The position numbers were made by a program, and so were the translations under genes. The notes under the pieces were generated by a model that saw nothing but the letters and a program-made list of their open reading frames with translations, ran no database searches and was not told where the DNA came from. Below, one piece after another: positions 1 through 27,339 of a stretch of 64,000 bases of DNA. The stretch covers positions 1 through 64,000 of the forward strand of contig JABDKA010000049.1 of NCBI GenBank assembly GCA_013002405.1. The letters run 5' to 3'. Numbering within the stretch: the stretch's first letter is position 1; every line of letters begins with the position of its first letter. Source of the stretch: Sulfitobacter sp. GTDB taxonomy: Bacteria; Pseudomonadota; Alphaproteobacteria; Rhodobacterales; Rhodobacteraceae.

Positions 1-1121
1 CAGTAGCCCAGCATCGCATTCGGACCTTTGACAGCAATCTCCCCGGTATCCCCGCGCGGCAGCTCGTTCATAGCCTTATCCACGATCCGGATCTCGACGA
101 TCCGCGTGGGCCGTCCGGCAGACCGCAACTTGCCCGCCAGCGGGCCCTCGAAGACGTGGTATTTCGCGGGCAGGAAGGTTGCCACCGGGGCCAGTTCCGT
201 CTGACCGTAGGCCTGCACAAAGGTAACACCGGGAAAACGCTCAAAAGCCATCCGCAGAGTGCCCTCGGTGATGGGCGAGGCACCGTAAGTGATCATCTCA
301 AGCGAGGAAATATCCGTCTCCGCCAGCTTTTCTGACCCCAGTACCATCTGCAACATAACTGGCACCAGCAGTACCACGCTTGGCCGGTGCTTCTCAATCG
401 CCGCAAGGGTCGCTTCGGGAGTGAACATCGGGATCACCACGTGCGTCCCGGCCATCATCGTCACGGCGGTGAAATAGATGATGTCGGCGATGTGAAACAT
501 CGGTGCGGCGTGCAAATAGACCACCCCATCCTCCACCATTGCCTCATGCGCGTTTGACACCGTCCCGACAAAGAAATTCGTGTGGGACAACATCACGCCC
601 TTGGGAAAGCCGGTCGTGCCCCCGGTATAGAAAATCCCCGCCAGATCATCGCCCGCGCGGCCTGCATCCTCTGCCGGCTCCGCCCCTGCGATCAGTTCCT
701 CATAGTTCAGCATCCCCTCCGGCGTCTCTCCGTCGCCGCAGTAAACAAGCGTCTCCAAACCCGGCACCTCCGCCTTGATGGCGTCCGCCAGTCCCCTGAA
801 GGCCTCGTCCACCAGCAGGATCTTGGCCTCCGCATCGTTCAGGGCATAGGCACACTCGGGCGCGGCCCAGCGGATGTTCATGGGCATCATCGCCCCGCCA
901 CCCCAGACGGTGGCATAAAAGTACTCCAGGAACCTGTCCGAGTTTAGCGACAGAAGCGCCACCCGGTCCCCCGTCCCCATGCCAAGGCCCTGCAGCGCCC
1001 CCGCCAGCCGCGCCACGCGGTCCTCCATCTGCGCCCAGGTCTGTTGCCTGTCGCCGTAAATGCTCGCGATACCTTTGGAATTGATCTGCGCCGCCCGCCT
1101 GAGTATCGCTGTAATCTGCAT
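1..1121 (-). CDS. Acyl-CoA synthetase / AMP-dependent ligase (C-terminus truncated by window edge)
   Basis: Minus-strand reading frame open from ATG at 1121 to the edge: MQITAILRRAAQINSKGIASIYGDRQQTW...; AMP-binding motif IFYTGGTTGFPKGVMLSH and YGQTELAP. Confidence 0.9.
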   Translation of the reverse strand, partial: MQITAILRRAAQINSKGIASIYGDRQQTWAQMEDRVARLAGALQGLGMGTGDRVALLSLNSDRFLEYFYATVWGGGAMMPMNIRWAAPECAYALNDAEAKILLVDEAFRGLADAIKAEVPGLETLVYCGDGETPEGMLNYEELIAGAEPAEDAGRAGDDLAGIFYTGGTTGFPKGVMLSHTNFFVGTVSNAHEAMVEDGVVYLHAAPMFHIADIIYFTAVTMMAGTHVVIPMFTPEATLAAIEKHRPSVVLLVPVMLQMVLGSEKLAETDISSLEMITYGASPITEGTLRMAFERFPGVTFVQAYGQTELAPVATFLPAKYHVFEGPLAGKLRSAGRPTRIVEIRIVDKAMNELPRGDTGEIAVKGPNAMLGY

Positions 1122-1224: not shown

Positions 1225-2592
1225 TCAGTGCCGCCCGGCGATATAACCCAGCACAGTTGCCGCCAGCAGCCCATTGCCAGACAGATACCCGCTGTCACTC
1301 TTGCCAGAGACCCCCACGGCAGCCCCGCCCGCGGCGTAAAGGTTCTCAAACAGCCCGCCTTCAGCACGTTTCACCAGCGCCGACCCGGGGTCGATATCGA
1401 GGCCCCCTTGCGTATGGAACAGTGCCCCGGTCACCTTGACCGCGCAGTAGGGCGGGGCGAGTGGGGGGCTGTCCCAGTTTCTGCCAAACCCGTCTGGCCC
1501 CTGTTCAGGTTTCGCCGCGAAAGCTTGCCGAAGGGCTTCTACCGGCAAATCGCAGGCTGAAGCCAAGTCCTCAATGCTTTCCGTCTGAACGATTGCGCCC
1601 TGAGCCTCAGCGTTCTTGAAGTCTTCGAATTGTCGCGCGATGGCTGCGATCCGATCATCGAAGATGGTCCAGGCGACCCCGCCAGGCTGCGCCAGAACCG
1701 CCCGCGCGGCCTCGGAATAACCTTGCGACTCGTCCCAGAACCGCTCCCCCTTGGTGTTTACCTGGAACCCCCCTTGGGTGATCACAGCCCAGGTGATTAG
1801 GATCCCGTGCGGATAGGCAACATTGCCGTGGCCCTGATAGGCGCTGAGGTGCGCCGTCCTGGCACCGAGCTTCCGGCCCCAGGTCACGGCTTCGCCTCTG
1901 TTGCCGTCGTGACCGAACCAGAGGGCATTTTCGATCTCGGGCATATGGGCCATCACCATCTTCCGGTTCCCACCAAACCCGTTGCAGGCGAGGATGATCC
2001 GCCCTGCGCCCACCGTTTCGAAGGACCCGTCCGGCAGGGCAAGTTTCGCGCCGAAAACATGCGGGCCTTCGGCGAACAAGGTCACCGCCCTGCGGTCGCA
2101 GACCAGCGGGATTTGCAATGCATCGACCCGGGCACGCAGGGCATCGACCAGTTCCGCTCCGGCGCGGGTGGGAAGGCCGTGCATCCGGCGGCGCGAATGG
2201 CCGGGATAGTCGAAATCATCGACGACAGAGAAGGGAAGCGCGTGGGTCTTCGCCAGCCAGTCGATGACCGTTGCGGCCCCTTCGGCCAGGGCCTTTACCA
2301 GGGCTGGGTCATTCTCATCGTGGGCCTTTTTCTGGATGTCGGCGGCAAAAAGGTCTGGGCTGTCCTCAATCCCCGCGGCCCGCTGGATCGACGTGCCAGC
2401 GGCGGGGATCAGACCCGCGCTGAGGGCAGTGGAGCCCGAGGGCAGGGGGTCCGCCTCGACAAGTAGCACCTCTTGGCCCATCTCATGTGCGGCAAGCGCC
2501 GCGACGAGGCCGCAGGCGCCTGCGCCGATGATCAGGGTTTGGACCTCGACATCGTAGGTTTCAGGCGGCGCTGCGAGGTCAGGATTTGCCAT
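1225..2592 (-). CDS. FAD-dependent oxidoreductase (fumarate reductase/KSTD-like flavoprotein family)
   Basis: ORF 455 aa; N-terminal dinucleotide motif TLIIGAGACGLVAALAAHEMG; C-terminal NLYAAGGAAVGVSG...GYLSGNGLLAATVLGYIAG. Confidence 0.85.
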   Translation of the reverse strand: MANPDLAAPPETYDVEVQTLIIGAGACGLVAALAAHEMGQEVLLVEADPLPSGSTALSAGLIPAAGTSIQRAAGIEDSPDLFAADIQKKAHDENDPALVKALAEGAATVIDWLAKTHALPFSVVDDFDYPGHSRRRMHGLPTRAGAELVDALRARVDALQIPLVCDRRAVTLFAEGPHVFGAKLALPDGSFETVGAGRIILACNGFGGNRKMVMAHMPEIENALWFGHDGNRGEAVTWGRKLGARTAHLSAYQGHGNVAYPHGILITWAVITQGGFQVNTKGERFWDESQGYSEAARAVLAQPGGVAWTIFDDRIAAIARQFEDFKNAEAQGAIVQTESIEDLASACDLPVEALRQAFAAKPEQGPDGFGRNWDSPPLAPPYCAVKVTGALFHTQGGLDIDPGSALVKRAEGGLFENLYAAGGAAVGVSGKSDSGYLSGNGLLAATVLGYIAGRH

Positions 2593-3439
2593 CGAAACGC
2601 TTTCCCAGCGTCAGCATTTCTGGCGTGCCGATGGCGGCGTTCAGCCCGTCAAAATCGTGCATCCGGTCAGCGAAGGGGGTGTTGGAGCCATTGGCGTGCA
2701 GGCTGGCATAGTAGTCCTGCGCGGTCTTGGCCAAGGCCCGGACGATGCCACCGGGGAAGATGACGATGTCAAAGCCCATCCGCTCAAGCGCGTCGGCAGA
2801 GGAAATGGGCGTTGCCCCCCCTTCGACCATGTTGGCAAGCAGCGGGATGCGGCCCCGGAAGGCCTCGGCCACCTTGCCAAGTTCATCGGAAGAACGGGGG
2901 GCCTCGATGAAGAGCACGTCCGCCCCGGCCTCGATATAGATTTCGCCGCGAGCCCGGGCGGCCTCGAAGCCTTCTACGGCGATCGCGTCGGTGCGGGCGA
3001 TGATGAGTGTGTCCTCGCGGCGGGCGTCTGCCATCGCTGCGATCTTTCCAGCCATTTCATCACTTGAAATCAATGATTTATCCGAAAGATGGCCGCATTT
3101 CTTGGGATACGTCTGATCCTCTACCTGCAAGGCGGCAGCGCCCGCGCGTTCATAGGTCTGAATGGTGCGCCGGGCATTCAGGGCGTTCCCGAAACCGGTG
3201 TCGGCGTCCATGATCACAGGCAGGTCTGTGCGATCGCCGATCAGGGCCATCGTTTCCGCCATCTCGGAGGCTGTGCTGAGGCCGATGTCAGGGCGGCCGA
3301 GGCGGGTGTAAGCGACGGCGGCACCCGATAAATAAAGCGCCTCGAATCCCGCGTCGGTGGCCAGCGCGGCGGTGAGACCATCGTAGACGCCGGGGGCGAC
3401 AAGGATGCCGGGTTCTTTCAGGCGGTCACGCAGGCTCAT
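2579..3439 (-). CDS. Isocitrate lyase/PEP mutase superfamily C-C lyase
   Basis: ORF 286 aa; MDADTGFGNALN, VEDQTYPKKCGHL (KKCGH motif of the lyases), IARTDA. Confidence 0.88.
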   Translation of the reverse strand: MSLRDRLKEPGILVAPGVYDGLTAALATDAGFEALYLSGAAVAYTRLGRPDIGLSTASEMAETMALIGDRTDLPVIMDADTGFGNALNARRTIQTYERAGAAALQVEDQTYPKKCGHLSDKSLISSDEMAGKIAAMADARREDTLIIARTDAIAVEGFEAARARGEIYIEAGADVLFIEAPRSSDELGKVAEAFRGRIPLLANMVEGGATPISSADALERMGFDIVIFPGGIVRALAKTAQDYYASLHANGSNTPFADRMHDFDGLNAAIGTPEMLTLGKRFDGKS

Positions 3440-4038
3440 GACGGTCCTCCGATCATCTGCAGCGCCTCGGCGCAGGTGACCACGTCCGTGACGGAGCCGA
3501 GCGAGATGAGCGTTGCCTCATGCACCTCATCCTTGAAGGCGGCGCAGCCATCCGACAGCAGAATGGTGTGAATGTTGCGCAGGTGGGCGTCGCGCACGGT
3601 GCTGGCCACACCACCGTTGGTGACGATGCCACCAACGATCAGTGTGTCGATCTCAATCGCGCGCAGGATGTATTCCAGGCGGGTCTGGTAGAAGGCGGAG
3701 TAGGCCACCTTTTCCACCGTGAAATCGGCTGGCGCAAGCGTGTCGACAAGCGAGTGACCGAAGCCGCCGGGGGCGAAATCGCCTTTTGTCAGGAAGGGGC
3801 GGAGTTTCTTCAGATGGGGGGCGATGAGGGGTTCATTGTCGCGGCCCGGAACAAGGGTGAACTGGGCGGAGATATAGGTGCCTCCGACCCTTGTTAGAGC
3901 CTGTTTCAGAGGCAGGATGCGATCGGGCAGGGCGGTGATGGCCCCTGCCGTCTGGCCCGCGCGTCCGTAGGCGCCTTCGGGGTGCAGAAAATCGTTCTGC
4001 AGGTCGATCGTCAGCAGTGCTGTCTTGGAAGGGGTCAT
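3436..4038 (-). CDS. Isochorismatase-family hydrolase lacking the usual catalytic cysteine
   Basis: ORF 200 aa; ALLTIDLQNDFLHPEG, VEKVAYSAFYQT, IVGGIVTNGGVASTVRDAHL (usual TNxCVxSTxRDA; Cys position is Gly). 4-bp overlap with the next gene. Confidence 0.85.
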   Translation of the reverse strand: MTPSKTALLTIDLQNDFLHPEGAYGRAGQTAGAITALPDRILPLKQALTRVGGTYISAQFTLVPGRDNEPLIAPHLKKLRPFLTKGDFAPGGFGHSLVDTLAPADFTVEKVAYSAFYQTRLEYILRAIEIDTLIVGGIVTNGGVASTVRDAHLRNIHTILLSDGCAAFKDEVHEATLISLGSVTDVVTCAEALQMIGGPS

Positions 4039-6095
4039 GAGGCGGCCCTTTCAATGATGGTGTTGCCGTAGGTGTCGATGCGGCCCACAAGATCGGGTTC
4101 GATCAGGACCGTGGTGTCGGGCTGTTCCAGGATCGCGGGGCCGGGCACTTCGGCACCGACGGGCAGGGCGAGGCGGCTGTAGATCTTCGTCTCAAACCAT
4201 GCCTCATCGAAGTGAACCTGCCGGGTGCCTTTCAGCGCTTTCTCCAGGCTGCCCCCTTCAGGGGCGAGGGTTCCCAGATCGAACCGGGGCCGCTTGCCCG
4301 TGACGGCAGAGCGCAGGTTGATGACGCGCCGCGTGCCGTTCTTGAGAAGCCTTCCGTAGGCAGCGCGGTAGGCTGCATCGAAGGCCTCGCGGATTTCCTC
4401 TTCCGTCGGCGGGATCACCTTGCCATCGGTCACCGTGACGGCCAGGGGAACGGAGACGGTGTGTGTCTGGCCGAGGTAGGCCATGTCGAGGGTAAAGGCG
4501 GTCTCTCGGGCCTCGAAGGTGGTCTGTGCTGCCTCAAGCGTGGCAAGGCCGCTGTCGACGTGGGCCTGCATATGGGCGGTCAGCGCGTTAGTGTCGATGC
4601 CTGCGAGCATGGTGTTGATGGTCTGGACGAAATCCTGCCGCATGTCGGCAATGACACAGCCCATGGCAGAGGTGACACCGGGGTAGCGCGGCACGATGGC
4701 GCGGGCCAGGCCCACGTCGGCCAGCATGGCCCCCGCATGGAGAGCGCCGCCGCCGCCGAAGGGCATGAAAGCAAAGCGCTTGGGGTCAAAACCCCGTTCA
4801 ATAGAGACCAACCTGAGGGCCCCTGCCATGCGCGAATTGGCGACCCGCAGGATGGCTTCGGCGGCTTTGAGGGCGTCGAGGCCGAGGGGTTTGCCGACCT
4901 GTTCCAGGATTGCCGCCTTCGCGGATTCGACGTCAAGCCTGTCCAGCTTGCCGCCGATGGGGTTTTCGGGGTCGATCCGGCCCAGGACGACGTTGGCGTC
5001 AGTTACAGTGGGGCGGGTGTTGCCCTGGCCGTAGGCGACGGGGCCGGGGGTGGAGCCGGCACTTTCGGGGCCGATGTTCAGCAATCCGCCCTTGTCCACC
5101 CAGGCGATAGAGCCGCCACCGGCGCCGATGGTCGTGATCTCGATCATCGGCGAGCGAACGACCATGCCAAAGTCGATCGAGGTCTGTGGCGAGAGCATGC
5201 TCTGCCCTTGCGCGATGAGCGAGACATCGAAGGAGGTGCCGCCCATGTCGCCGGTGATGACATCGGGGAAACCCGCCGCTTCGGCGATGTAGCCTGCGGC
5301 GATGACGCCCGCGGCGGGGCCGGAGAGGGCGGTGCGGATAGGGAAGGAGGCCGCCGTGTCCACGTCCATGACGCCGCCGTTGGACTGGACGATCATGAAT
5401 TCGCCCTCAAAGCCGCCTTCCTTCAAAGCAGTCTCTAACCGGGCCAAATAGCCCGAAACCTCAGGCTGGAGGTAGGCGTTGAGGGCGGTGGTTGAGAAAC
5501 GTTCGAATTCCCGGATCTCTGGGAGGATTTCGGAGGAGCAGGAGACGTGGGCGTTGGGCCAGATTTCACGAACCGCCTCGACCGCCTGCCTTTCGTTTTC
5601 CGAATTGGCGTAGCTGTTGGCGAAAAGGATTGCGCAGGCGAGACAGCCTTCGTCGATGAGCATTCGGGCCGCGATGCGTACGGCGCCAAGATCCACGGGC
5701 GTGCGGATGGTGCCATCTGCAAGAGTCCGTTCGGGCACTTCGAGGCGCAGGGCACGGTCCACGACCGGCTTGAAGTCGCCGCGCAGGCCCCATGTGCGAG
5801 GGCGGTCCCGTCGGCGCATTTCAAGCACGTCGCGCAGGCCTTGGGTGGTGATGACGCCGATGCGCGCGCCCTTCCGTTCCAGCAGGGCGTTGGTGCCTGC
5901 GGTGGTGCCGTGAACGACGACGCTGACCTCGCTCAGGTCGTCGACGCGCGATCCGATGCCGCTCAGGAAGCCGCCCGACTGGTCAGGGCGCGTGGTGGGG
6001 ACCTTGGCCACCTGGGCAATACCGGTGGATTCGTCCAGGACGAAGATGTCCGTGAAGGTGCCGCCGACATCGACGCCGATCATCTTGCCGGTCAT
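4035..6095 (-). CDS. hyuA: Hydantoinase/oxoprolinase family protein, HyuA-type ATP-dependent subunit
   Basis: Start ATG at 6095 (MTGKMIGVDVGGTFTDIFVLDE), ATGA overlap with hyuB; GDMGGTSFDVSLI, ITTIGAGGGSIAWVD. Confidence 0.9.
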   Translation of the reverse strand: MTGKMIGVDVGGTFTDIFVLDESTGIAQVAKVPTTRPDQSGGFLSGIGSRVDDLSEVSVVVHGTTAGTNALLERKGARIGVITTQGLRDVLEMRRRDRPRTWGLRGDFKPVVDRALRLEVPERTLADGTIRTPVDLGAVRIAARMLIDEGCLACAILFANSYANSENERQAVEAVREIWPNAHVSCSSEILPEIREFERFSTTALNAYLQPEVSGYLARLETALKEGGFEGEFMIVQSNGGVMDVDTAASFPIRTALSGPAAGVIAAGYIAEAAGFPDVITGDMGGTSFDVSLIAQGQSMLSPQTSIDFGMVVRSPMIEITTIGAGGGSIAWVDKGGLLNIGPESAGSTPGPVAYGQGNTRPTVTDANVVLGRIDPENPIGGKLDRLDVESAKAAILEQVGKPLGLDALKAAEAILRVANSRMAGALRLVSIERGFDPKRFAFMPFGGGGALHAGAMLADVGLARAIVPRYPGVTSAMGCVIADMRQDFVQTINTMLAGIDTNALTAHMQAHVDSGLATLEAAQTTFEARETAFTLDMAYLGQTHTVSVPLAVTVTDGKVIPPTEEEIREAFDAAYRAAYGRLLKNGTRRVINLRSAVTGKRPRFDLGTLAPEGGSLEKALKGTRQVHFDEAWFETKIYSRLALPVGAEVPGPAILEQPDTTVLIEPDLVGRIDTYGNTIIERAAS

Positions 6096-7786
6096 TGGGC
6101 AGTCTCCCATGCCGGGCCATAGGTTTCTGTGGCCTTCCCTGGCGATATCAGTCCGCCCGCGACATCGCGGGCCACAGCTGCGGGTGCGCGCGTTGCGGGA
6201 TCGCCGTAGCCGCCTCCGCCTGGGGTGTCGAGTCGCACGGATTGACCTTGTTTGAGACTGATACCGACCATTTTCGAGGCCATGGGCGGATGGTGCCATC
6301 CGTCCGCCTGTTCGTAGGAAAAGACGTTGAGCGCCGCTTCGCCCCCGCCTGCGGCCCCCTTGGGCGCATGGCGTCCGCGTTCACCAAAGAGAAAGGCCTT
6401 GGCCCCGTTCCCTTCGAGCACCTCAATCTCATAAGTGGCCCCCAGACCGCCGCGATGCATGCCCGCGCCAGCACTGTCGGGACGCAGGGCCCATTGTCTG
6501 AACATGACCGGATAGGCCGCCTCAAGGATCTCCATCGGGGGGATCGTCGCGGTGGAGATGGGGGCGTTGCCGTGGTTGAGGCCGTCGGACTCGATGCTGC
6601 CGCCGTGGCCGCCACCGTAGAAGGAGAACATCACCCAAGGCTGACCGTTGTCCCGCTTGCCCGAGATGGAGAGGGCGTTGATCGTGCCGTAGGCGTTGGC
6701 GACGACGCGTTCGGGTGCGGCCTGAGAGGCTGCTGCGAAGATCACGTCAATCATGCGCAGGATCGTTTCGGTATAGCCGCCCACGGGGGCCGGGAAGGGG
6801 GCCGAAAGGAGGGAGCCTTCGGGGATCTGCACGTCGATGGGGCGCATAACGCCTGCGTTGGCGGGCAGGGTCGGAAAAATGTGCTTGATCGCCACATAGG
6901 CGGTGGCAACAGCGGTGGGCAGGGCAATGTTGACGGGTCCGGCGCAGCGCGGGGCGGTGCCGGTGAAGTCGAGCGTCATGGTATCGCCTGCGATTTCCAG
7001 GGCCACCGTGATGGGCAGGGGTTCATCGGTGATGCCGTCATTGTCGAGATAGTCGGTCGCCTCCCAGCGGCCATCGGGCAGCTCTGTCAGTTCGGCGCGC
7101 ATGAGCGCCTCCGCCCGGTCCTGCAAAGCATCAAGGGCGGCGCGAACGGTATCGGCGCCGTATTCGCCCAGCAGTTCGTCCATGCGTTTGACGCCCAGGT
7201 CGAGCGCGCCAAGCTGGCCATTCAGGTCGCCCTGCGCCGATTGGGGCAGGCGGGTGTTGCGCATGAGGATGTCGATGATGTCCTGCTGGACCTCGCCCGC
7301 CTTTGCCAGACGCACAGGGGGAAGCACGAAAGCCTCCTGAAAGGCGTCTGTCGCGGCGGGGTTGTAGTTGCCGGGGACCGCACCGCCCACATCATGCCAA
7401 TGGCCAACGGAGGCAAGGTAGCAAAAGAGCTGCCCGTCGTGAAAGTAGGGTCTAACAAGGCGCATATCGCTCAAGTGAGTGCCGCCAAGGTGAGCATCGT
7501 TGAAGATGTAGATGTCCCCGTCGGCCAGATCACCGTTCTCTTCCGCCTTGTCGATGACGGCCTTCACGGCAAAGGACATGACCCCGACAAAGATGGGCAG
7601 ACCTGATTTGCCCTGCACCAGCGTATCGCCGGTGCCCGCATGGTAAAGCCCGTGGGAGGCATCGTGCGCCTCGGCGATGATCGGGTTGAAGGCGGCGCGG
7701 AAAAGCGTCGCGTCCATCTCATCTGCGATCTGCTCCATCCGGCCGGCAAGAACGGCCAGCGTGATCGGGTCAATCTCGGCGCTCAT
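6092..7786 (-). CDS. hyuB: Hydantoinase B/oxoprolinase family protein, HyuB-type subunit
   Basis: ORF 564 aa; FNPIIAEAHDASHGLY, YIFNDAHLGGTHLSDM, C-terminal TPGGGGYGDPATRAPAAVARDVAGGLIS. Confidence 0.92.
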   Translation of the reverse strand: MSAEIDPITLAVLAGRMEQIADEMDATLFRAAFNPIIAEAHDASHGLYHAGTGDTLVQGKSGLPIFVGVMSFAVKAVIDKAEENGDLADGDIYIFNDAHLGGTHLSDMRLVRPYFHDGQLFCYLASVGHWHDVGGAVPGNYNPAATDAFQEAFVLPPVRLAKAGEVQQDIIDILMRNTRLPQSAQGDLNGQLGALDLGVKRMDELLGEYGADTVRAALDALQDRAEALMRAELTELPDGRWEATDYLDNDGITDEPLPITVALEIAGDTMTLDFTGTAPRCAGPVNIALPTAVATAYVAIKHIFPTLPANAGVMRPIDVQIPEGSLLSAPFPAPVGGYTETILRMIDVIFAAASQAAPERVVANAYGTINALSISGKRDNGQPWVMFSFYGGGHGGSIESDGLNHGNAPISTATIPPMEILEAAYPVMFRQWALRPDSAGAGMHRGGLGATYEIEVLEGNGAKAFLFGERGRHAPKGAAGGGEAALNVFSYEQADGWHHPPMASKMVGISLKQGQSVRLDTPGGGGYGDPATRAPAAVARDVAGGLISPGKATETYGPAWETAQ

Positions 7787-7788
7787 GT

Positions 7789-8349
7789 CTATCCTTTAAT
7801 CTCTGCAAGGTCGTTCCAGACGTCCTGGCGGGTCAGCATTCCGTGGGTGACCTCGAACCGGTCGATAAATCGGATGCCTTCAAAGGGCGTGCCATCGGGC
7901 CATTCGCCCGAGAGGGTGCCGCGGCAGTAGACGATGGCCTGCTCCCCTTCGGACTGCATGGCGTCAAAGCCTGCGTAGCTTTTGGTGACGAAACGGTAGC
8001 GGGGGGCGGCCCAGTCGATCAGCTCTTCCAGCGTGGTCATGTGCACGTCACCCGGAAAGGTCATTTGGAAACCGGCCCCCAGCATGGCCTTTGCGGTATT
8101 AAGGTCGCGGGCCTCCATCGCCTTGAGAAAGGCGCGGACAGTTTCGCCGGGGTCGGGCAGCGCAGGGGCGGGGGAGCGGTGCTGTCGGCCCCGCATATAG
8201 TCGGCGGGAGCCATTTCGTTGATCATGACGGTGACGGCCTCGGGTGCTGCGGGAACGACGATTCGCACGGCGTCGGTCAGGGCTTCGCAGAGGCGTTTTT
8301 TGTCATCATCGTTGTATCCTGCGATGACGTGGCACTGGATGACCGGCAT
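7789..8349 (-). CDS. Tautomerase (4-OT-like, Pro1) fused to SnoaL/NTF2-like domain
   Basis: MPVIQCHVIAGYNDDDKKRLCEALTDAV at the N-terminus; C-terminal VRAFLKAMEARDLNTAKAMLGAGFQMTFPG...GIRFIDRFEVTHGMLTRQDVWNDL typical of SnoaL-like proteins. Confidence 0.75.
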   Translation of the reverse strand: MPVIQCHVIAGYNDDDKKRLCEALTDAVRIVVPAAPEAVTVMINEMAPADYMRGRQHRSPAPALPDPGETVRAFLKAMEARDLNTAKAMLGAGFQMTFPGDVHMTTLEELIDWAAPRYRFVTKSYAGFDAMQSEGEQAIVYCRGTLSGEWPDGTPFEGIRFIDRFEVTHGMLTRQDVWNDLAEIKG

Positions 8350-8407: not shown

Positions 8408-8465
8408 AAATTTCTTGCATTTGCATATTCTATCGGTAGTCTGCGCGTTAGTCTGGGGGATTCCT

Positions 8466-9281
8466 ATGCAAGACAGACAGCAGCAGGAGACAGGTATTGG
8501 CCTGCCCGAAGGGGGCAAAGCCAGGCGTGTCTATCTGCAGCTGAAGGAAGAGATTGCGCGTGGGGTCCACGCCGAAGGCAGCCTGCTGCCGGGGGAGCAG
8601 AAATTGGCCGCGCTGCTGGATGTCTCGCGCGTCACGGTGCGCCGTGCGATGGATGCGCTTGAAGCCGACGGGCTGGTGGAACGGCGCGCGGGTGCGGGCA
8701 CCAAGGTACGCGGCGCGGGGCGAAAACCGACGATGGCGGCGGACTTTACCACGCTGATCCCGCAGGTCGTGCAGATGGGGCAGGAAACGACCGCGCGGCT
8801 GCTTTCCTTTGCCTACGGGAAAGCCCCCGCCGCGGTGGCGCGAGCGATGGAGTTGCCGGAAAATGCGCGCATGCAGACCGCCGTCAGGTTGCGTCTGGTG
8901 GAGGGGCAGCCCTTTTCCCACCTCACCACGCACGTGCCCGAAGAGATTGCCCAGAATTACACCGAGGCCGAGCTGGCGACCACGCCGCTCTATGCGCTGC
9001 TGGAACGGTCGGGCGTGAAGGTGGAGCGTGCGCGTCAGTCTGTCAGTGCGACTCTCGCGGCCCCTGATGTGGCCGAGGTTCTGGGGCTGAGCATCGGTGC
9101 GCCGCTTCTGTCGCTGGAAAGGGTCGTACGGGACGCGCAGGGCAGGGGGGTTGAATACCTGTCGGCCCTCTACCGTCCCGATATGTTCCGGCTGGAAATG
9201 GAATTGAGCCACGTAGGTGCCGGCAAGGGCCGTCATTGGGAGCCGGTCATCGGTCCGGCGGGACGGGAGGCGGCGGAATGA
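8466..9281 (+). CDS. GntR family transcriptional regulator with UTRA ligand domain
   Basis: ATG at 8466; KARRVYLQLKEEIARGVHAEGSLLPGEQKLAALLDVSRVTVRRAMDALEADGLVERRAGAGTKV (wHTH), followed by a UTRA-like C-terminus. Confidence 0.9.
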   Translation: MQDRQQQETGIGLPEGGKARRVYLQLKEEIARGVHAEGSLLPGEQKLAALLDVSRVTVRRAMDALEADGLVERRAGAGTKVRGAGRKPTMAADFTTLIPQVVQMGQETTARLLSFAYGKAPAAVARAMELPENARMQTAVRLRLVEGQPFSHLTTHVPEEIAQNYTEAELATTPLYALLERSGVKVERARQSVSATLAAPDVAEVLGLSIGAPLLSLERVVRDAQGRGVEYLSALYRPDMFRLEMELSHVGAGKGRHWEPVIGPAGREAAE

Positions 9282-10645
9282 GCGTACCGCTTACCTTGCT
9301 GGACAGGCTTTGGGATGCGCATGAGATTTTGCGGCGCGACGATGGCACGTCCCTCCTTTGGGTGGATCGCCATCTGGTGCACGAAGGGTCGCACCATGCA
9401 TTTGCCAAGCTGGCGTCGCGCGGGATGCCTGTGGCGGAGCCGGAGCTGACTTTTGCGGTGGTCGATCATTACGCGCCTACGCGGGCGGGTGAAGTGGCGC
9501 CCGACATCCGCCGGATGATCCGAACACTGGGAGAGAATGCGCGGGCGCAGGGTATCCGTCTCTTTGATCTGAAGGATCCGGGGCAGGGGATTGTCCACGT
9601 GATCGGGCCGGAGCAGGGACTGACTCTGCCGGGGTTGCTGATCAACTGCGGAGATTCGCATACGTCAACGCACGGCGCTTTCGGTGCCCTGGCCTTTGGC
9701 GTTGGGGCGACAGAGGTGGCGCATATCCTGGCCACCCAGACGATCTGGCAGCGCAAGCCGAAGGCCTTGCGGATGGTCTTTGACGGAACGCTTGCAGCAG
9801 GGGTGACGGCCAAGGACATGGCATTGCACTGGATTTCCAAGCTGGGCACCGGCGGCGCGCAGGGCCATGCCATCGAATATGCGGGGGCGGCTGTTGAAGC
9901 GCTGTCGATGGAGGGGCGGCTGACGCTGTGCAACCTTTCCATCGAGGGGGGTGCGCGGTTCGGCATGGTGGCTCCGGATGAGGTGACCTTCGATTATCTG
10001 AAGGACCGTCCTTTCGCTCCCAAGGGGGCCGAATGGCAAGCCGCGCTGGAAGACTGGCGCGGGCTGCGATCCGATGAAGGTGCCTCCTTTGACCGGGAGG
10101 CGCAGTTCGACGCGGGTGAGATCGCGCCGACGGTCACCTGGGGCACCATGCCCGAGGAGGCCCTGCCGATCACCGAAGTGGTGCCGGACGCCGCACGAGA
10201 GACGCTTGAGTATATGGCGCTAGAGCCGGGTCTGCCCCTGTCGGAAGTGGCTGTTGATCAGGTTTTCATCGGCTCCTGCACGAACGGGCGCATCGAGGAC
10301 CTGCGCATGGCAGCGAAGGTCCTGAAGGGGCGTAAGGCGAAGGTGCCGGGGCTGGTTTCTCCGGGCTCCACCCAGATCAAGAAGCAGGCCGAAGATGAGG
10401 GGCTGGCGCGCATCTTTACCGAAGCCGGACTTGAGTGGGCCGGGGCGGGCTGTTCCATGTGCGTCGGCATGAATGGCGATCTTGTGGAAAGCGGTAAGCG
10501 TTGTGCCTCATCGACCAACCGGAATTTCAAGGGCCGTCAGGGCAGGGGGGCACGCACCCACCTTATGAGCCCCGCGATGGTGGCCGCAGCCGCCGTAAAG
10601 GGACATCTGGCCGATGTGCGGCCCCTACTGGAGGGGCGTACGTGA
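9278..10645 (+). CDS. Aconitase-superfamily dehydratase large subunit (LeuC-like)
   Basis: Start 9278 overlapping the GntR stop; NCGDSHTSTHGAFGALAFGVGATEV, FIGSCTNGRIEDLRMAAKVLKGRK, GAGCSMCVGMNGD (4Fe-4S ligands). Confidence 0.9.
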   Translation: MSVPLTLLDRLWDAHEILRRDDGTSLLWVDRHLVHEGSHHAFAKLASRGMPVAEPELTFAVVDHYAPTRAGEVAPDIRRMIRTLGENARAQGIRLFDLKDPGQGIVHVIGPEQGLTLPGLLINCGDSHTSTHGAFGALAFGVGATEVAHILATQTIWQRKPKALRMVFDGTLAAGVTAKDMALHWISKLGTGGAQGHAIEYAGAAVEALSMEGRLTLCNLSIEGGARFGMVAPDEVTFDYLKDRPFAPKGAEWQAALEDWRGLRSDEGASFDREAQFDAGEIAPTVTWGTMPEEALPITEVVPDAARETLEYMALEPGLPLSEVAVDQVFIGSCTNGRIEDLRMAAKVLKGRKAKVPGLVSPGSTQIKKQAEDEGLARIFTEAGLEWAGAGCSMCVGMNGDLVESGKRCASSTNRNFKGRQGRGARTHLMSPAMVAAAAVKGHLADVRPLLEGRT

Positions 10646-11232
10646 GCGGCTGGTCGAAGATGGATGGGCGTGCCGTGGCGCTGGCACAGGCCAATGTGGA
10701 CACCGATCAGTTGATCCCGGCGCGCTTCATGTCGCAGCCGCGGTCCGAAGGGTACGGCGCGTTCCTGCTGCAGGATGCGCGGGCGGATGATGAAGGGCAT
10801 GTGTTGAACCGGCACAGTGATGTGCAGGTGTTGGTGAGCCGCCGCAATTTTGGCAGCGGATCCAGCCGGGAGGCGGCGGTCTATGCGCTGGTGGATTTCG
10901 GTATCCGGGCGGTCTTTGCGCCTTCCTTCGGGGACATCTTCGCCTCCAACGCTGTGAACAACGGGCTCTTGCCCGCGCGGCTGAGTGAGGATCAGATCGA
11001 GGAATTGATCGCGGCGCTTGGGCCGGGGGAGGCCACTGCTTCGATTGACCTGGAGATGGGTGCGGCGGTGATCGCGGGGCGCGAAGTGCGCTTTGATCTG
11101 GATCCTGTCTGGCAGCAGAAGCTGGTGAATGGATGGGACGATATCGACCTTACTGCCCAGTATGACGACGCCACCAAGAAGTTTCGAGCGGACCGCATGG
11201 CCGCATATCCGTGGGCCATGCCTGCATCATGA
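10642..11232 (+). CDS. Aconitase-superfamily dehydratase small subunit (LeuD-like)
   Basis: GTG start at 10642 overlapping the LeuC-like stop (GTGA); ANVDTDQLIPARFM, NFGSGSSREAAVYALVDFGIRAVFAPSFGDIFASNAVNNGLLP. Confidence 0.88.
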   Translation: MSGWSKMDGRAVALAQANVDTDQLIPARFMSQPRSEGYGAFLLQDARADDEGHVLNRHSDVQVLVSRRNFGSGSSREAAVYALVDFGIRAVFAPSFGDIFASNAVNNGLLPARLSEDQIEELIAALGPGEATASIDLEMGAAVIAGREVRFDLDPVWQQKLVNGWDDIDLTAQYDDATKKFRADRMAAYPWAMPAS

Positions 11233-11274: not shown

Positions 11275-12270
11275 ATGAAACATACGATTTTTGCGAGCGT
11301 GATCGCAGGGGCGGCGATGGTTGGCAGCGCCAGCGCGCAGGAGACCATCACGGCGGTCCACGCCTTTCCTGAGTCGCTGATCTACACCAAGTCGTTCCTT
11401 GAGTTTGTCGACAAGGTGAACGAGGCGGGCGACGGCGTTGTCCAGATCGAGGTGCGTGGCGGCCCCGAGGCCATCGGCATGTTCCAGCAGCCCGACGCGG
11501 TGCGCGCGGGTGTGGTGGATATGGTCTATACTCCCGGCTCTTTCTACGCCGGTGCCCTGCCCGAGAAGGACGCGCTCGTTGCCTCCAACCTGACGGCGGT
11601 GGAGACGCGCGAGAATGGCGGTATCGCCCTGATCGATGAGATCCATCAGGAGAAGATGGGCTTGAAGTACCTGGGCTGGTTTGATTCCGGCGTCTGCTAC
11701 AACCTCTGGACCCGCAATGAGCCGACGCTGGACGATGGTGGCAATCTGGATGTGTCGGGTCTGAAACTGCGCGGCAACGCGGTCTACAACGCCTTCTTTA
11801 CCGAATACCTTGGTGCGCAGGTGATCGACCTGCCGACGACAGAGGTCTATTCCGCGCTGGAGCGTGGCGTGGTGGATGCGACGGGCTGGACCCAGATCGG
11901 CCTGATCGACCTGAAGTGGAACGAGTTCCTGAACTACCGGATCGAGCCCTGCTTCTTCTCTACCGACCTTGGGGTGATCGTGAACCTGGACAAGTGGAAC
12001 AGCCTGTCCGATGAGGCCAAACAGATCGTCCAGGATGTGGCCATCGCCCACGAGAAGGACTCTGCCTCCAAGCTGGGTGCCAAGCGGGACGAGGACTTTG
12101 CCGCGCTGGACGAACAGGGCATGAAGGTTGTCACCCTCGAAGGGCAAGCGGCCGAAAACTATCTGGCTGCTGCTGTGGAAAAGACCCACGCCCGCATGAA
12201 GAAGCTGATGGAAGAAAGCCCGCAGGGTGCAGGTAACTATGACCGCCTGATCGAGCTTTTCTACGAATAA
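11275..12270 (+). CDS. dctP: TRAP transporter DctP-type solute-binding protein
   Basis: Signal peptide MKHTIFASVIAGAAMVGSASAQ; VDLPTTEVYSALERGVVDATGW-type motif; followed by DctQ and DctM. Confidence 0.88.
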   Translation: MKHTIFASVIAGAAMVGSASAQETITAVHAFPESLIYTKSFLEFVDKVNEAGDGVVQIEVRGGPEAIGMFQQPDAVRAGVVDMVYTPGSFYAGALPEKDALVASNLTAVETRENGGIALIDEIHQEKMGLKYLGWFDSGVCYNLWTRNEPTLDDGGNLDVSGLKLRGNAVYNAFFTEYLGAQVIDLPTTEVYSALERGVVDATGWTQIGLIDLKWNEFLNYRIEPCFFSTDLGVIVNLDKWNSLSDEAKQIVQDVAIAHEKDSASKLGAKRDEDFAALDEQGMKVVTLEGQAAENYLAAAVEKTHARMKKLMEESPQGAGNYDRLIELFYE

Positions 12271-12341
12271 GCCAAGAGCGGTTTGCAAAAGTGGCGCGCG
12301 GGGGGTTCCTTTCGCGCGTCAGGCTCACAAAGGGGCAGGGC

Positions 12342-12848
12342 ATGGAACTGATCGGCAAGCTCTACCGCATGGTGCTTTATGCCATGGCGGGTATCGCGGG
12401 GGCGATGCTGATCTGGCTGATGATCTCTGTCGTCACCTCCGTCGTGATGCGGAATGCGGGGATGCAGCCCTTTGCCTGGCTCTTTACCTCCTCCGAATAT
12501 GCCATCCTTTACATGACCATGCTGGGCGCGCCCTGGCTGGTGCGCGAAAAGGGGCACGTGCACATCGAACTGGTGACCGCCGCCCTGCCCGCACCCGCGC
12601 GCCGAGTGGTAAGCCGCGCGGTGGCCGCCCTTTGCGTGGCAGTCTGCGTCATGTTGGCCTGGAAGGGGGCAGAACTGTTCCTGACCAATGTCGAACGCAA
12701 CGATCTGGACGTGCGCGCTTACTATTTCCCCAAGTGGATCCTGACGATCGCCTTTCCAATCAGCTTTGGCTTGATGGCGATCGAGTTTTCGCGGTTCGTT
12801 TTCGGGTCTGACCTGATGCATTCAGGCGAAGCGGGGATTCACGAATAA
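12342..12848 (+). CDS. dctQ: TRAP transporter small permease (DctQ)
   Basis: Start 12342 (MELIGKLYRMVLYAM); four hydrophobic segments; between dctP and dctM. Confidence 0.8.
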   Translation: MELIGKLYRMVLYAMAGIAGAMLIWLMISVVTSVVMRNAGMQPFAWLFTSSEYAILYMTMLGAPWLVREKGHVHIELVTAALPAPARRVVSRAVAALCVAVCVMLAWKGAELFLTNVERNDLDVRAYYFPKWILTIAFPISFGLMAIEFSRFVFGSDLMHSGEAGIHE

Positions 12849-14155
12849 TGGAATGGTTTGAAGCGCTTGGCCTGCTGATTGGGGCAATCCTTGTCCTCAT
12901 GGCCATCGGGATGCCGGTGGCGCTGGCCTTTCTGGCGGCAAACATCATCGGCGCCTTCATCTTTATGGGGGGCACGCGCGGCGTAACCCTGATGCTGAAC
13001 AACGGCTTCGGGGGGCTGACGAACTTTGCCCTCGTGCCCATCCCGCTTTTCCTGCTGATGGGAGAGATCTTTTTCCACACCGGGCTGGGTGCCCGGATGT
13101 TCAATGCCATCGACAAGCTTCTGGGCCGTCTGCCGGGGCGTCTATCCTATGTCACGGTACTGGGCGGCACGGCCTTTTCGACGCTCTCGGGGTCTTCCAT
13201 GGGGTCCACGGCGTTGCTGGGTTCGCTCATGGTGCCGGAGATGACGCAGCGGGGATACAAAAAGCACATGTCCATCGGGCCGATTCTGGGCACCGGGGGG
13301 CTGGCCATCATCATTCCGCCGTCTGCGCTGGCGGTGCTGCTGGCGACCCTGGCGCGCATCGACGTGGGCGCGCTGCTGATCGCGGGGATCGTGCCGGGTT
13401 TGATCCTTGCGGGCTTTTACATGGCGACGATCTTTGTGCAGACGCGGATCGACCCCGACGCGGCCCCTCCCTATGAGGTGGAGCGTCACACCCTTGGCGA
13501 AAAGCTGGGTCTGCTGTTCCGGGACATTCTGCCGATGCTGTCGGTCATGGTGATTATCGTGATCGGCATGGTGGGCGGCCTGATCACACCGTCCGAGGCC
13601 GCGGCCTTTGGCGCACTTGGCGTGTTGATCCTGGCGGTGGTTTTTCGCTGTCTGACCTGGGAGGCGATGAAGAAATCCATCGTGGGGGCGCTTCGGGTGA
13701 CGCTTATGGCCTATCTGATCGTCTTTGGGTCGGCCACTTTCAGCCAGCTTCTGGCCTTCTCCGGCGCTTCCAGCGGGCTCATCCGCTGGGCAACCTCTTT
13801 CGATCTGGCCCCGGTTGCCATGCTGCTGGTCATGTTCGCGGTGCTTCTGGTGCTTGGCATGTTCATGGAGCAGATTTCCATGATGCTGCTGACCGTGCCG
13901 ATCTTTTTCCCGCTGGCCACGACGCTGGGGTTTGATCCGATCTGGTTTGGCCTGATCATCCTGCTGGCGCTTGAGATCAGCTTTACGACGCCGCCCTTTG
14001 GATTGCTGCTGTTCGTGATGAAAGGGGTCGCCCCGAAGGATACGACCATGCGGGACATCTACGGATCGGCCATTCCCTATATGGCCTGTTCTATGCTGCT
14101 GGTGGCGTTGCTGATCCTTTTCCCGCAGCTGGCGCTGTGGTTGCCGGGGCTTTAA
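12848..14155 (+). CDS. dctM: TRAP transporter large permease (DctM)
   Basis: ORF 435 aa; GMPVALAFLAANIIGAF, LSGSSMGSTALLGSLMVPEMTQRGY, IIPPSALAVLLATLARIDVGALLIAGIVPGL. Confidence 0.92.
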   Translation: MEWFEALGLLIGAILVLMAIGMPVALAFLAANIIGAFIFMGGTRGVTLMLNNGFGGLTNFALVPIPLFLLMGEIFFHTGLGARMFNAIDKLLGRLPGRLSYVTVLGGTAFSTLSGSSMGSTALLGSLMVPEMTQRGYKKHMSIGPILGTGGLAIIIPPSALAVLLATLARIDVGALLIAGIVPGLILAGFYMATIFVQTRIDPDAAPPYEVERHTLGEKLGLLFRDILPMLSVMVIIVIGMVGGLITPSEAAAFGALGVLILAVVFRCLTWEAMKKSIVGALRVTLMAYLIVFGSATFSQLLAFSGASSGLIRWATSFDLAPVAMLLVMFAVLLVLGMFMEQISMMLLTVPIFFPLATTLGFDPIWFGLIILLALEISFTTPPFGLLLFVMKGVAPKDTTMRDIYGSAIPYMACSMLLVALLILFPQLALWLPGL

Positions 14156-14277
14156 CTTTTTGCACGAAACTGTGTGACGGGTGTGACATTTGTAAAGGTG
14201 GATATACTTTGTCCGAAACGCAGGATATTATTCAGCCGATGCAGGCCGCTGTGGCCCGCCGTTTCGAAAGATTATCG

Positions 14278-15051
14278 ATGATGCCACGCCTGACCAGTAC
14301 TCTTTTCGCCCTCATTCTTGGCCTTTCCGCGGCACTGCCTGCTGCGGCGCAGGAACGGTCCTTTACCTTTGCTTTGCGCGGCGGGCTGGCGGTGACGCCG
14401 GAATACCCCGGTTCGGACAATTACGAGCCGGGTCCCGATATCGGGTTCACCTTCGGATCGCTAAGCTGGGGCCGCCTGAATGTGGGCCAGGGTATCGGCA
14501 ATGCACCCGCAACGGGGCTAAGCTTTCGCGGTGCTTTCAGGTTCATCGGGGAGCGGGAAAGCTCCGACTATCCCGAATTGGCGGGTCTGAACGACATCGA
14601 CGCAACGGTCGAACTGGGCTTTGGCGCGATCTACCGGGAGCGGAACTGGCAGGCCTTCGGTGAGGTCCGTAAGGGCATCGGCGGTCACGATGGGTTCACC
14701 GGCACCCTGGGGGCCAACCTTGTGTTTCGCCCGACGGAGCGGTTTACCCTGCTGGCCGGACCGCGTGTGTCCTTTGGCGACAGCGATTATGCATCCACCT
14801 ATTTCGGCGTGAGCGCGGCGGAGGCTGCGGCCTCCCAGTTCGGTCAGTTCAACGCGGGTGGCGGCGCACTGGGGGCCGGGGTTGAGGTGCAGGGCACCTA
14901 CCGCATCAATGACCGCTGGGCGGTTGAAGGGGCCGTGTCTTACGAAAAGCTGCTGAACGATGCGGCCGACAGCCCGATCACCGCCATCGGGTCGGAAGAT
15001 CAGTGGCGCATGCGTCTTGGGCTGAGCCGGACGTTCAATCTGCGTTTCTGA
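14278..15051 (+). CDS. MipA/OmpV family outer membrane protein
   Basis: Signal peptide MMPRLTSTLFALILGLSAALPAAAQ; GGLAVTPEYPGSDNYEPGPDIGF; C-terminal beta-strand ending GLSRTFNLRF. Confidence 0.8.
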   Translation: MMPRLTSTLFALILGLSAALPAAAQERSFTFALRGGLAVTPEYPGSDNYEPGPDIGFTFGSLSWGRLNVGQGIGNAPATGLSFRGAFRFIGERESSDYPELAGLNDIDATVELGFGAIYRERNWQAFGEVRKGIGGHDGFTGTLGANLVFRPTERFTLLAGPRVSFGDSDYASTYFGVSAAEAAASQFGQFNAGGGALGAGVEVQGTYRINDRWAVEGAVSYEKLLNDAADSPITAIGSEDQWRMRLGLSRTFNLRF

Positions 15052-15066
15052 AGTTCGGGCCTTTCC

Positions 15067-15762
15067 ATGAATCTGACCGACGCCATGCAAGGACGCCGCT
15101 CCATCCGCGGCTTCCAGAAGAAGGCTGTTCCCAAAGAGCTGCTTGAAGAGATCATTGGCCTGGCCAACCGCGCGCCTTCCTCAATGAACACCCAACCCTG
15201 GCATTTTCACGTGCTAACCGGTGCCCCGCTGGAACGGGTGCGCGAAGGCAATTCCACGCGCATGATGTCGGGTGTGCCCCCGGTCCGCGAGATCGTGGAT
15301 CACGGTGTCTACGAAGGGCCACACCGCGACCGTCAGGTGGAGATCGCCAAGCAGCTTTTCGCCGCCATGGGCATCGCGCGCGAGGACAAGGAGATGCGGC
15401 AGGACTGGGTGATGCGCGGATTTCGTCAGTTCGACGCGCCTGTCTCTGTCGTGGTGACCTTCGACAAAGCGCTGGAGGGGACGACGATCGCCTCCTTCGA
15501 TACGGGTGCAGTGACCTACGGTCTGGTGCTGGCTGCCTGGTCGAAAGGGCTGGGCGCGGTGATTAACGGGCAGGGCATCATGCAATCTCCGGTCGTTCGG
15601 CAGGAGGCGGGTATCCCGGACAATGAAGTCATCATGACCTGCGTCGCGCTGGGCTGGCCGGACGAGGAATTTGCCGCCAACAGCGTGGTTTCGCGCCGAC
15701 GTCCGGTGGAAGCGGTTGCGCGGTTCGTGGGGTTTGACGAAGAAGACCGCAACGCGGGCTAG
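15067..15762 (+). CDS. Nitroreductase family protein
   Basis: MNLTDAMQGRRSIRGFQKKAVPKELLEEIIGLANRAPSSMNTQPWHFHVLTG. Confidence 0.92.
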   Translation: MNLTDAMQGRRSIRGFQKKAVPKELLEEIIGLANRAPSSMNTQPWHFHVLTGAPLERVREGNSTRMMSGVPPVREIVDHGVYEGPHRDRQVEIAKQLFAAMGIAREDKEMRQDWVMRGFRQFDAPVSVVVTFDKALEGTTIASFDTGAVTYGLVLAAWSKGLGAVINGQGIMQSPVVRQEAGIPDNEVIMTCVALGWPDEEFAANSVVSRRRPVEAVARFVGFDEEDRNAG

Positions 15763-16349
15763 GGCTCGCGCGTCTCCTGCTCATCCCCGAAAGCCACGAT
15801 GGAGAGGGCAAGGAAAAGCAGCCCCGCCAGGACCGAAGTCTGCAAAGAAATCCCCGCCGTGTAGCTGAGGCCTGGCAGATCCGTTGTTCCGGTGAGGTTC
15901 ATCAGGGTGATGGCAAGTGCGGCGGAGATGCCGAGAACCCCTATGCATTCGACGGCGAAGAAGGACCGCTTCAGGATCCGGTTCGCCGCCCAAACATAGA
16001 GTACAAGGACAAGGGCCGTTATCATGGCCATCCGCTCCGTTGCCTCTGTCTGCGCAAAGAAAAGCGCGGAGGGCCCGTGCCAGCCAGAGACCTGACCCAT
16101 CATCGTCAGCCCGACAAGGCCAAGCAGAAGGGCGTTCAGCAGATGGCTGAGCTTCACCCGACCGCTCAGGGCCGTAATCATGGACAGGCCGGCGAAGACA
16201 AATGAAAGGGCCGTCGCGGGGACCATGGCCGTCTGCGTAAGGGAATGGCGGACCAAGCCACTGATCTGCAGACCCCATCCCAGAAAGAGTGCTGCGACCG
16301 CGTAGAGGGCCACGATCAAGGCCAGTGTCGCGGCTGCGAAGGGGACCAA
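15759..16349 (-). CDS. Hypothetical integral membrane protein (about six hydrophobic segments)
   Basis: ORF 196 aa with repeated hydrophobic stretches (ALIVALYAVAALFLGWGLQ, LLNALLLGLVGLTMM, MITALVLVLYVWAA, CIGVLGISAALAITLM). No family recognised. Confidence 0.6.
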   Translation of the reverse strand: MVPFAAATLALIVALYAVAALFLGWGLQISGLVRHSLTQTAMVPATALSFVFAGLSMITALSGRVKLSHLLNALLLGLVGLTMMGQVSGWHGPSALFFAQTEATERMAMITALVLVLYVWAANRILKRSFFAVECIGVLGISAALAITLMNLTGTTDLPGLSYTAGISLQTSVLAGLLFLALSIVAFGDEQETREP

Positions 16350-16422
16350 ATTCTTCTTTTGTCTCTGGCGTTCGATGGCAGATACTCCTGCCGCAGATGT
16401 CTATTTTCTCATCCTTCAATAG

Positions 16423-16438
16423 GTCTATTATAATAGAC
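16423..16438. promoter_or_regulatory. Perfect 16-bp palindrome upstream of the minus-strand membrane protein
   Basis: GTCTATTATAATAGAC is its own reverse complement; a further ATGTCTATT half-site begins at about 16397. Confidence 0.45.
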
Positions 16439-16846
16439 ATCGTCCAATAACCCTAGCGCGAAGCACCCCTGTGAGGCGCGTCGGCGGATTACAGCATGTC
16501 ATGCCCGGAGGATGGGGGAATCCTGCAATCGAACCAGCCGCTTACATCAACAGCGCTTTCCTGATCCAGTGCGCGCCTTTTTTTGGCGGGGGCGATATCT
16601 GAACGCCACTTGTCATCGGATCGCTACCAAATCGTCAGAGAGGTCCCGCGAATCAGGGCAGCGAAAGGATGCACGACTCTGCGAGAAGTTGCGCTTGGCA
16701 GGAAAAGGATTGCGCGGCGGCCTATCGGGAATGGCCGCTCCATCTGCGCAGGCCGCAGCCCATGACTGACCACCTTGCGTTGGTGCAAGGTCCGGGACCC
16801 CTGGCATTTCGGGAACGTCCGGGATCGTTGGCGTGCGTTTACCAGT

Positions 16847-23985: not shown

Positions 23986-24009
23986 CCGCAAATTCAGAAC
24001 ACTTTGAGA

Positions 24010-24035
24010 AGCCCCGCCAATCGGCGGGGCTTTTT
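24010..24035 (+). terminator. Rho-independent terminator
   Basis: AGCCCCGCC-AATC-GGCGGGGCT-TTTT. Confidence 0.92.
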
Positions 24036-24165
24036 GCTGTGGGAAGGGCATGCCAAAGGTAGTCGTGGCATCGTCCGGCCACTTCACGCTATCAATGTCC
24101 TGCGCACTTTGCCCCAGCGGCAGGAGACCCGCTTGACCCGGCTTTTTTCATCCAAAGACCGTCCC

Positions 24166-27100: not shown

Positions 27101-27339
27101 CCGGTGAGACACTTGATGTCCCGGCTGACAAGACAGCCGCTGAGGTGCTGATTGCCCATGGTCATCCTGTCGACATGAAGTGCGATGATGGCATCTGCGG
27201 TGTCTGCCGCTGCGGGGTCATCGCGGGAGAGGTCGAGCACCGCGATTTCGTCCTTTCGGCGGTGCAAAGGAAGGACGGCATGATCCTGTGCCAATCGCGC
27301 GCCCTCGCAAAAGACGGTGAGATCACGCTCGACCTTTGA
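24166..27339 (+). CDS. Self-sufficient (BhbA/NpRdhA-type) cobalamin-dependent reductive dehalogenase fused to a flavin/NAD(P)H reductase and [2Fe-2S] ferredoxin domain
   Basis: Start ATG 24166 (alternative TTG 24133); the ORF-track start at 24004 precedes the terminator. FCESCNKCARECPAGAIT and AMCGRCMKTCPWN 4Fe-4S motifs; FLMGGGIGITPMIAMAQTL NAD-binding; CDDGICGVCRCGV...LCQSRA plant-type [2Fe-2S]. Confidence 0.88.
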   Translation: MHLGPYPVEKLRRMVALPDLGKVPPMVPLSFDRPEDPFSIVNAMREHQAMLDTIRGGLVNGVIAVTPDDPLERANHLKSFGYFADAAVVGTCLLPEAALLERPIINPDVAQLAEDLQTKQTKTLASGIDMIMADLKESAAAELPGIEGHSHAIVFLYENPREVRTDEPGICWIRDAQAHRAGLLAAETACVIANYLRLLGHDARGHTVSASDVDLGKLAVAAGLATVEKGALHHPYIRDRFGLAAVTTSFEIAPDQPLASLADQPGSAFGIGWRMAGSAPKNAGNAVPYAKRRFVDGAQPFERLKRVDEPTTYIDEAQVARVPKRTDMFARAQFGDMGKKLQESATGGHYVRKAAPSMAQRRALGAFVLLQDGTPAEEKQEIEPQTAADLIKATSYFLGIDAVGISRCPDWTWYSHDARGEVIDPPHDQAISMVVDQGYETMEGSSGDDWIAVAQSMRAYLRFSLLGGVIAKQIRNLGYSAKAHTVMDGEVLQPPLLLLSGLGEVSRIGEVILNPYLGPRLKSGVVTTDLPMAHDKPIDFGLQTFCESCNKCARECPAGAITAGPKLMFNGYEIWKSDSQKCTTYRITTEGGAMCGRCMKTCPWNLEGIFKERPFRWAAMNVPQLAPALARLDDAVGNGGLNPVKKWWWDLEIREDGGYRPTTKPVNRRDLQRDLDLKYEDQTLAVYPAPLAPHPYPYPFPMDREAGIQAYQAMVSADEHRRRRAQGDERVLHKYTARDESPVLEVEITRAEEMADGVTKYEFQLTDRGDLPVWEAGAHLDLVVAPEYLRQYSMSGDPADRSRYQIGVLREEAGRGGSKLLHRIFDVGRRIFISRPINHFALDPSATKVFLMGGGIGITPMIAMAQTLHRERREFEMHYSGRSRNQMGYLKDLDSFEWSDRVHLHISDEGTRLDLARFFDRYNEGWHVYTCGADRYMTAVLDAAERAGFPEGARHLEYFSVPEVPEYENHPFKLRLASTGETLDVPADKTAAEVLIAHGHPVDMKCDDGICGVCRCGVIAGEVEHRDFVLSAVQRKDGMILCQSRALAKDGEITLDL

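Follow-up and report, generated by a model that had tools for sequence, protein, structure and literature searches.

What reaction can be assigned to an isochorismatase-like protein that lacks the cysteine nucleophile of its family? This question is raised by a gene in a 64,000-nucleotide stretch of a Sulfitobacter sp. genome (GenBank assembly GCA_013002405.1, contig JABDKA010000049.1, positions 1 to 64,000; hereafter, the window). A preliminary description of the sequence had reported that the family Asp and Lys are kept and the Cys replaced by Gly, that a simple cysteine-amidase label would be unsafe, and that there is a likeness to EntB and PhzD, which hydrolyse vinyl ethers.

An isochorismatase fold without the cysteine

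3436..4038 (-), Cys-less isochorismatase-like protein, 200 aa, with Asp12-Lys110-Gly143 (ORF, Pfam, alignment)
3598..3621 (-), TNGGVAST motif; the codon of Gly143 (nucleophile column), ggt, lies at 3610-3612

The replacement was confirmed by translation of the open reading frame, Pfam matching and alignment. The product carries TIDLQNDF (Asp12), VEKVAYSAF (Lys110) and TNGGVASTVRDA, and scores 106.9 bits against Pfam Isochorismatase (PF00857; gathering cut-off 27), which places it in the superfamily. In the alignment with RutB (TNVCVEST) and EntB (AHIGCMTT) that the preliminary description had proposed, with YecD (TNIGVEST) added, Gly143 falls in the nucleophile column. The Rossmann-like fold of the superfamily is supported by an AlphaFold model (mean pLDDT 85.6), which matches, with a probability of 1.00, the PDB structures of 3kl2, RutB, biuret and triuret hydrolases, YecD, NicF and isochorismatases.

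A sequencing error at the Gly codon had been raised as a possible source of Gly143. Among 143 distinct homologues (at least 48% identity; a first set enlarged with genomes drawn from the wider family, class and phylum), the position holds Gly in 142, Ala in one and Cys in none, and a sequencing error is therefore excluded. Nor does another Cys serve as a substitute nucleophile, as had also been considered: Cys165 of SDGCAAF, the sole nearly constant Cys in the clade, sits elsewhere and is Ser in 7 of the 143 homologues, and the Cys of VVTCAEAL varies across relatives.

With Gly143, the protein lacks the Asp-Lys-Cys triad of cysteine amidohydrolases (RutB, NicF, biuret hydrolase type) and has the Asp-Lys-Gly triad of the isochorismatase enzymes EntB and PhzD. 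It scores below the NCBIfam equivalog cut-offs for RutB (65.4 of 377.95 bits), biuret hydrolase (58.1 of 370) and YecD (51.9 of 195). We therefore assign it to a clade of the isochorismatase fold that lacks the Cys, and class it neither with the cysteine amidohydrolases nor with the isochorismatase enzymes. The caution against a simple amidase label was well placed, as this is a genuine Cys-less member with the same triad as EntB and YecD.

The triad itself is already known, and what is new is this clade and its gene setting. YecD and EntB are listed as Asp-Lys-Gly in a published comparison (PMC12553813), and the EntB relatives in the PDB with alignments shown also have Gly in the nucleophile column. 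Escherichia coli YecD shares both the triad and the TNxGVxST motif, but is about 30% identical over the match and lacks Arg26, His75, Arg80 and Arg120, residues typical of the clade. EntB, VibB and PhzD likewise share the fold, the Asp-Lys pair and the Gly, but identity is approximately 20–25%, they lie on a separate branch, and isochorismate genes are absent around the Cys-less gene. RutB, the biuret and triuret hydrolases, and NicF have the fold, Asp and Lys in common with it, whereas RutB and triuret hydrolase follow the family norm of a Cys nucleophile. NicF and N-carbamoylsarcosine amidohydrolase were compared at the level of PDB matches.

A widespread and distinct clade

All of the first homologue set (110/110) read TNGGV, as do 140 of the 143 distinct homologues, the others being TNGGI (two) and TNGAV (one). 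Asp12 and Lys110 are invariant in all 143, as are His75 and Arg80, and Arg26 and Arg120 are nearly so. The combination of Arg26, His75, Arg80 and Arg120 is found in none of the aligned sequences from outside the clade, and these residues would suit an anionic substrate. Outside the clade, identity falls to about 36% or less, and the nucleophile column holds mostly Cys, with a few Val, Ala or Ser. In the tree, the clade forms a single, fully supported branch on a long stem. A common origin of its Gly site with that of EntB (AU p 0.29) or of YecD (AU p 0.13) is neither supported nor rejected. Whatever its substrate, ‘cysteine hydrolase’ is the wrong label for this widespread clade.

Some genomes (L119, L122, L123, L134 and L120) carry further distant isochorismatase-like genes without the Cys, which have Val (TNGV), Ala or Ser instead. 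L192 and L217 show a paralogue of 53% identity that has no hyuAB close to it; it reads TNGAV, has also lost Arg120, and perhaps has a derived function.

The gene neighbourhood

1..1121 (-), acyl-CoA synthetase-like gene, cut by the contig end, next after the flavoprotein
1225..2592 (-), FAD-dependent dehydrogenase (flavocytochrome c / tricarballylate dehydrogenase-like; profile matches)
2579..3439 (-), ICL/PEP-mutase superfamily C-C lyase, methylisocitrate-lyase-like, with a KKCGH motif (profile and residue comparison)
4035..6095 (-), hyuA, ATP-dependent hydantoinase/oxoprolinase large subunit (ORF extends to 6299; start at MTGKMIG preferred)
6092..7786 (-), hyuB, hydantoinase/oxoprolinase small subunit (profile matches)
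7789..8349 (-), tautomerase-SnoaL fusion (4-oxalocrotonate tautomerase-like and SnoaL-like domains; profile matches)
8415..9281 (+), GntR/UTRA regulator, divergent (profile matches)
9278..10645 (+), LeuC-type hydratase large subunit (ORF from 9236; start inferred)
10660..11232 (+), LeuD-type hydratase small subunit (ORF from 10501; start inferred)
11275..14155 (+), TRAP transporter DctP, DctQ and DctM (DctP by profiles; full set conserved beside the cluster)

The cluster runs from the flavoprotein through the lyase, the Cys-less gene, hyuA, hyuB and the tautomerase-SnoaL fusion to the divergent GntR regulator, followed by leuC, leuD and the TRAP transporter. The Cys-less gene shares an ATGA overlap with hyuA on one side and with the lyase gene on the other. 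HyuA and HyuB carry the Pfam domains found in ATP-dependent caprolactamase and hydantoinase, but score 501.5 and 310.6 bits against the caprolactamase NCBIfam models, below the cut-offs of 1000.

The lyase also falls short of an equivalog cut-off, that of NCBIfam prpB (293.2 of 354.4 bits). It retains the K(K/R)CGH loop, as KKCGH, and nearly all of the PrpB active-site residues compared, including Phe186; Leu234 is replaced by Ile. Phe186 and Leu234 line the methyl pocket of PrpB, and the residues at these positions would suit pyruvate as a product. A second LeuC is encoded elsewhere in the genome, and the LeuC of the cluster is therefore probably catabolic. The acyl-CoA synthetase-like gene, which is not conserved at this place in other loci, may activate a pathway product.

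Gene linkage is conserved well beyond this genome. The hyuA gene lies directly upstream of the Cys-less gene in 140 of the 141 loci showing hyuA, and most of 77 long loci, which come mainly from Rhodobacterales and a few other Alphaproteobacteria, show the block seen in the window. In distant relatives, the gene order is reshuffled, and the gene set stays together. Of the 94 long loci whose sequences are distinct, all 94 have HyuA, 93 have the lyase, 92 have HyuB and 88 have LeuC of either type; 87 have all of them. The tautomerase-SnoaL fusion is kept in 76 of these 94 clusters. Transporters vary between lineages, and include TRAP, branched-chain-type ABC and other systems.

In many loci, LeuCD is exchanged for a non-orthologous pair, a LeuD/DmdB-type subunit with a homoaconitase-type partner. 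Selection therefore keeps the reaction type rather than one particular gene. The loop that reads a distal carboxylate in homoaconitase has Arg, Lys or His in nine of the ten small subunits of LeuD/DmdB type compared. This lends weak support to a substrate with such a carboxylate.

The near-constant position directly behind hyuA, together with the loss of the family nucleophile, could also be explained if the Cys-less protein were catalytically dead, acting as a partner or chaperone of HyuAB. This is very unlikely: the invariance of Asp12 and Lys110, and the near-invariance of four more polar residues across 143 sequences, would not be expected in a dead site, and the half-amide made in the pathway proposed below would otherwise have no enzyme.

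Genes for glutarate metabolism are found in some of the clusters. Glutaryl-CoA dehydrogenase and/or glutarate CoA-transferase genes occur in 18 of them, in at least three arrangements. The dehydrogenase was identified by its best PDB matches (654 and 574 bits), and the CaiB-type CoA-transferase is closest to succinate-glutarate CoA-transferase, at 534 bits, which falls short of the curated cut-off (750). In 14 loci, one or both genes lie downstream of the flavoprotein or lyase; about nine of these loci are Marivita-like and are therefore not independent. Another family carries the genes between the Cys-less gene and leuC, with both present in L197, L203 and L204 and the transferase in L194. 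In the genome of the window, homologues of both genes are located on other contigs.

A proposed route from an imide to a diacid

From the directly observed residue pattern, clade, gene linkage and family assignments, we infer a substrate, an order of reactions and a mechanism. The Cys-less gene keeps its place behind hyuAB, in the company of genes for a hydratase and a C-C lyase, and the reaction may therefore still be amide hydrolysis, carried out without a thiol. This setting fits the conversion of an imide-derived half-amide into a diacid, the type of reaction that NicF, a maleamate amidohydrolase, performs on the half-amide of maleate. Whatever the exact substrate, such a conversion is the probable role of the protein, and the larger share of this confidence belongs to a route of the hematinic type.

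Hematinic acid, or 3-(2-carboxyethyl)-4-methylmaleimide, arises as a monopyrrolic product when heme, bilins and chlorophyll are oxidised. Among the natural imides considered, it is the compound that, on the best reading, fits the gene set. This reading was recorded after the neighbouring genes had been listed, and its agreement with the glutarate genes does not count as a documented blind prediction. The compound has been reported in leaves and lake sediments (PMC7318184), and heme breakdown by ChuS is reported to yield it (PMC8131568). A full-text search of limited coverage found no published account of such a cluster or of genes for hematinic acid catabolism. That the protein is a thiol-independent amide hydrolase, acting second in the catabolism of a substituted maleimide that is most likely hematinic acid, is our tentative preference, held at slightly less than even confidence.

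In this route, the imide would be taken up by the TRAP transporter, and HyuAB would use ATP to open the ring to a half-amide. The Cys-less enzyme would then remove ammonia to leave a substituted maleate, to which the LeuCD-type hydratase would add water, giving a homologue of 2-methylisocitrate. Cleavage by the PrpB-like lyase would yield pyruvate and glutarate, the latter being finished by the CoA-transferase and glutaryl-CoA dehydrogenase. Gene linkage supports this logic well.

The hydratase and lyase steps have a precedent in nicotinate fermentation, where dimethylmaleate hydratase and 2,3-dimethylmalate lyase, an aconitase-type hydratase and an ICL-type lyase, act on a disubstituted maleate. 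The cluster has the same two enzyme types, and one operon type even uses subunits of the LeuD/DmdB family. Unlike that pathway, it places ATP-dependent ring opening and the Cys-less hydrolase ahead of them, and adds the glutarate genes.

The loss of the thiol would also be accommodated by this chemistry. In substituted maleamic acids, the amide is cleaved by the cis carboxyl group of the same molecule, and the quoted rate enhancements reach 10^10 M or more (PMC8198240). If HyuAB opens a disubstituted maleimide, its product would be of this kind, and an enzyme that positions this product, protonates the departing ammonia and hydrates the anhydride would require Asp and Lys but not a thiol. From chemistry and gene linkage together, we infer a mechanism in which the cis carboxylate of the dialkylmaleamate would attack the amide of the same molecule, in the way of Kirby's maleamic acids, within the space left by Gly143. 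Asp12 and Lys110 would act as acid-base catalysts, ammonia would leave in protonated form, and the anhydride would then be opened by water. Such half-amides tend to re-close, which would account for the use of ATP to drive the opening of the ring. Taken as a whole, an undescribed bacterial pathway from hematinic acid to pyruvate and glutarate, in which an isochorismatase-fold enzyme hydrolyses a dialkylmaleamate by letting the substrate carboxylate replace the lost Cys, is on the unlikely side.

Several observations count against the hematinic route. None of the small sample of flanking genes inspected is a tetrapyrrole-degradation gene, and no lyase gene was found within the available stretch of three clusters with glutarate genes (L197, L203 and L204). 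The flavoprotein and the tautomerase-SnoaL fusion have no clear place in it, and the transporters change from lineage to lineage. Moreover, YecD G145C hydrolyses amides that wild-type YecD does not (PMC12553813), and the inactivity of the wild type, which has the same triad, on the ordinary amides tested weighs against amide hydrolysis. A full-text search of limited coverage found no published account of such a cluster or of genes for hematinic acid catabolism.

A pathway of the same kind, with the same step from half-amide to diacid, could instead begin with another cyclic imide, for example ethylmethylmaleimide or methylmaleimide, or a substituted succinimide that the flavoprotein would oxidise first. 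All that the core genes call for is an imide, a diacid of the maleate type and a lyase substrate of the malate type, and other maleimides also derive from tetrapyrroles (PMC7318184). Glutarate genes are present in only 18 clusters, and substrates may therefore differ between lineages. However, these genes have joined the cluster in several arrangements, and neither ethylmethylmaleimide nor methylmaleimide would yield glutarate; this alternative is accordingly judged unlikely.

It is decidedly unlikely that the protein is not an amide hydrolase at all, but a hydrolase that uses acid-base catalysis on an enamine, imine or enol ether arising once the ring is open, working in the manner of EntB by delivering a proton to carbon and water to the resulting cation. 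EntB acts on a vinyl ether with the same triad, YSAF after the Lys is common to isochorismatases and the Cys-less protein, and a tautomerase is often present in the cluster. Nevertheless, no match to an isochorismate synthase (EntC) was obtained in any locus or in the window, and the hydratase and lyase downstream require a substituted maleate, which is directly available from an imide half-amide. The suggested parallel with vinyl-ether hydrolysis is not supported.

Two other assignments were rejected: isochorismate chemistry has no supporting genes, and hydantoin or creatinine catabolism (HyuAB with a carbamoyl hydrolase) leaves the hydratase, lyase and glutarate genes unexplained.

If the hematinic route is correct, the cluster would offer a genetic handle on the recycling of the smallest tetrapyrrole breakdown products by bacteria, mainly marine Rhodobacterales. 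The enzyme would also be a natural counterpart of carboxylate-assisted maleamic amide cleavage, an amidase able to discard its nucleophile because the substrate brings one.

Other observations

In L216, the hyuA-hydrolase pair lies near CoA-transferase genes and HMG-CoA-lyase-like and maleate-isomerase-like genes (approximately 12945-16631; judged by eye from sequence starts), which perhaps represent an alternative route from the same diacid. Elsewhere in the window, 24004-27339 (+) encodes a protein of 1111 aa in which a reductive dehalogenase domain (TIGR02486, 189 bits, cut-off 160) is joined to a C-terminal flavin/ferredoxin reductase-like part. Judged by its domains, it looks like a self-sufficient aerobic reductive dehalogenase.
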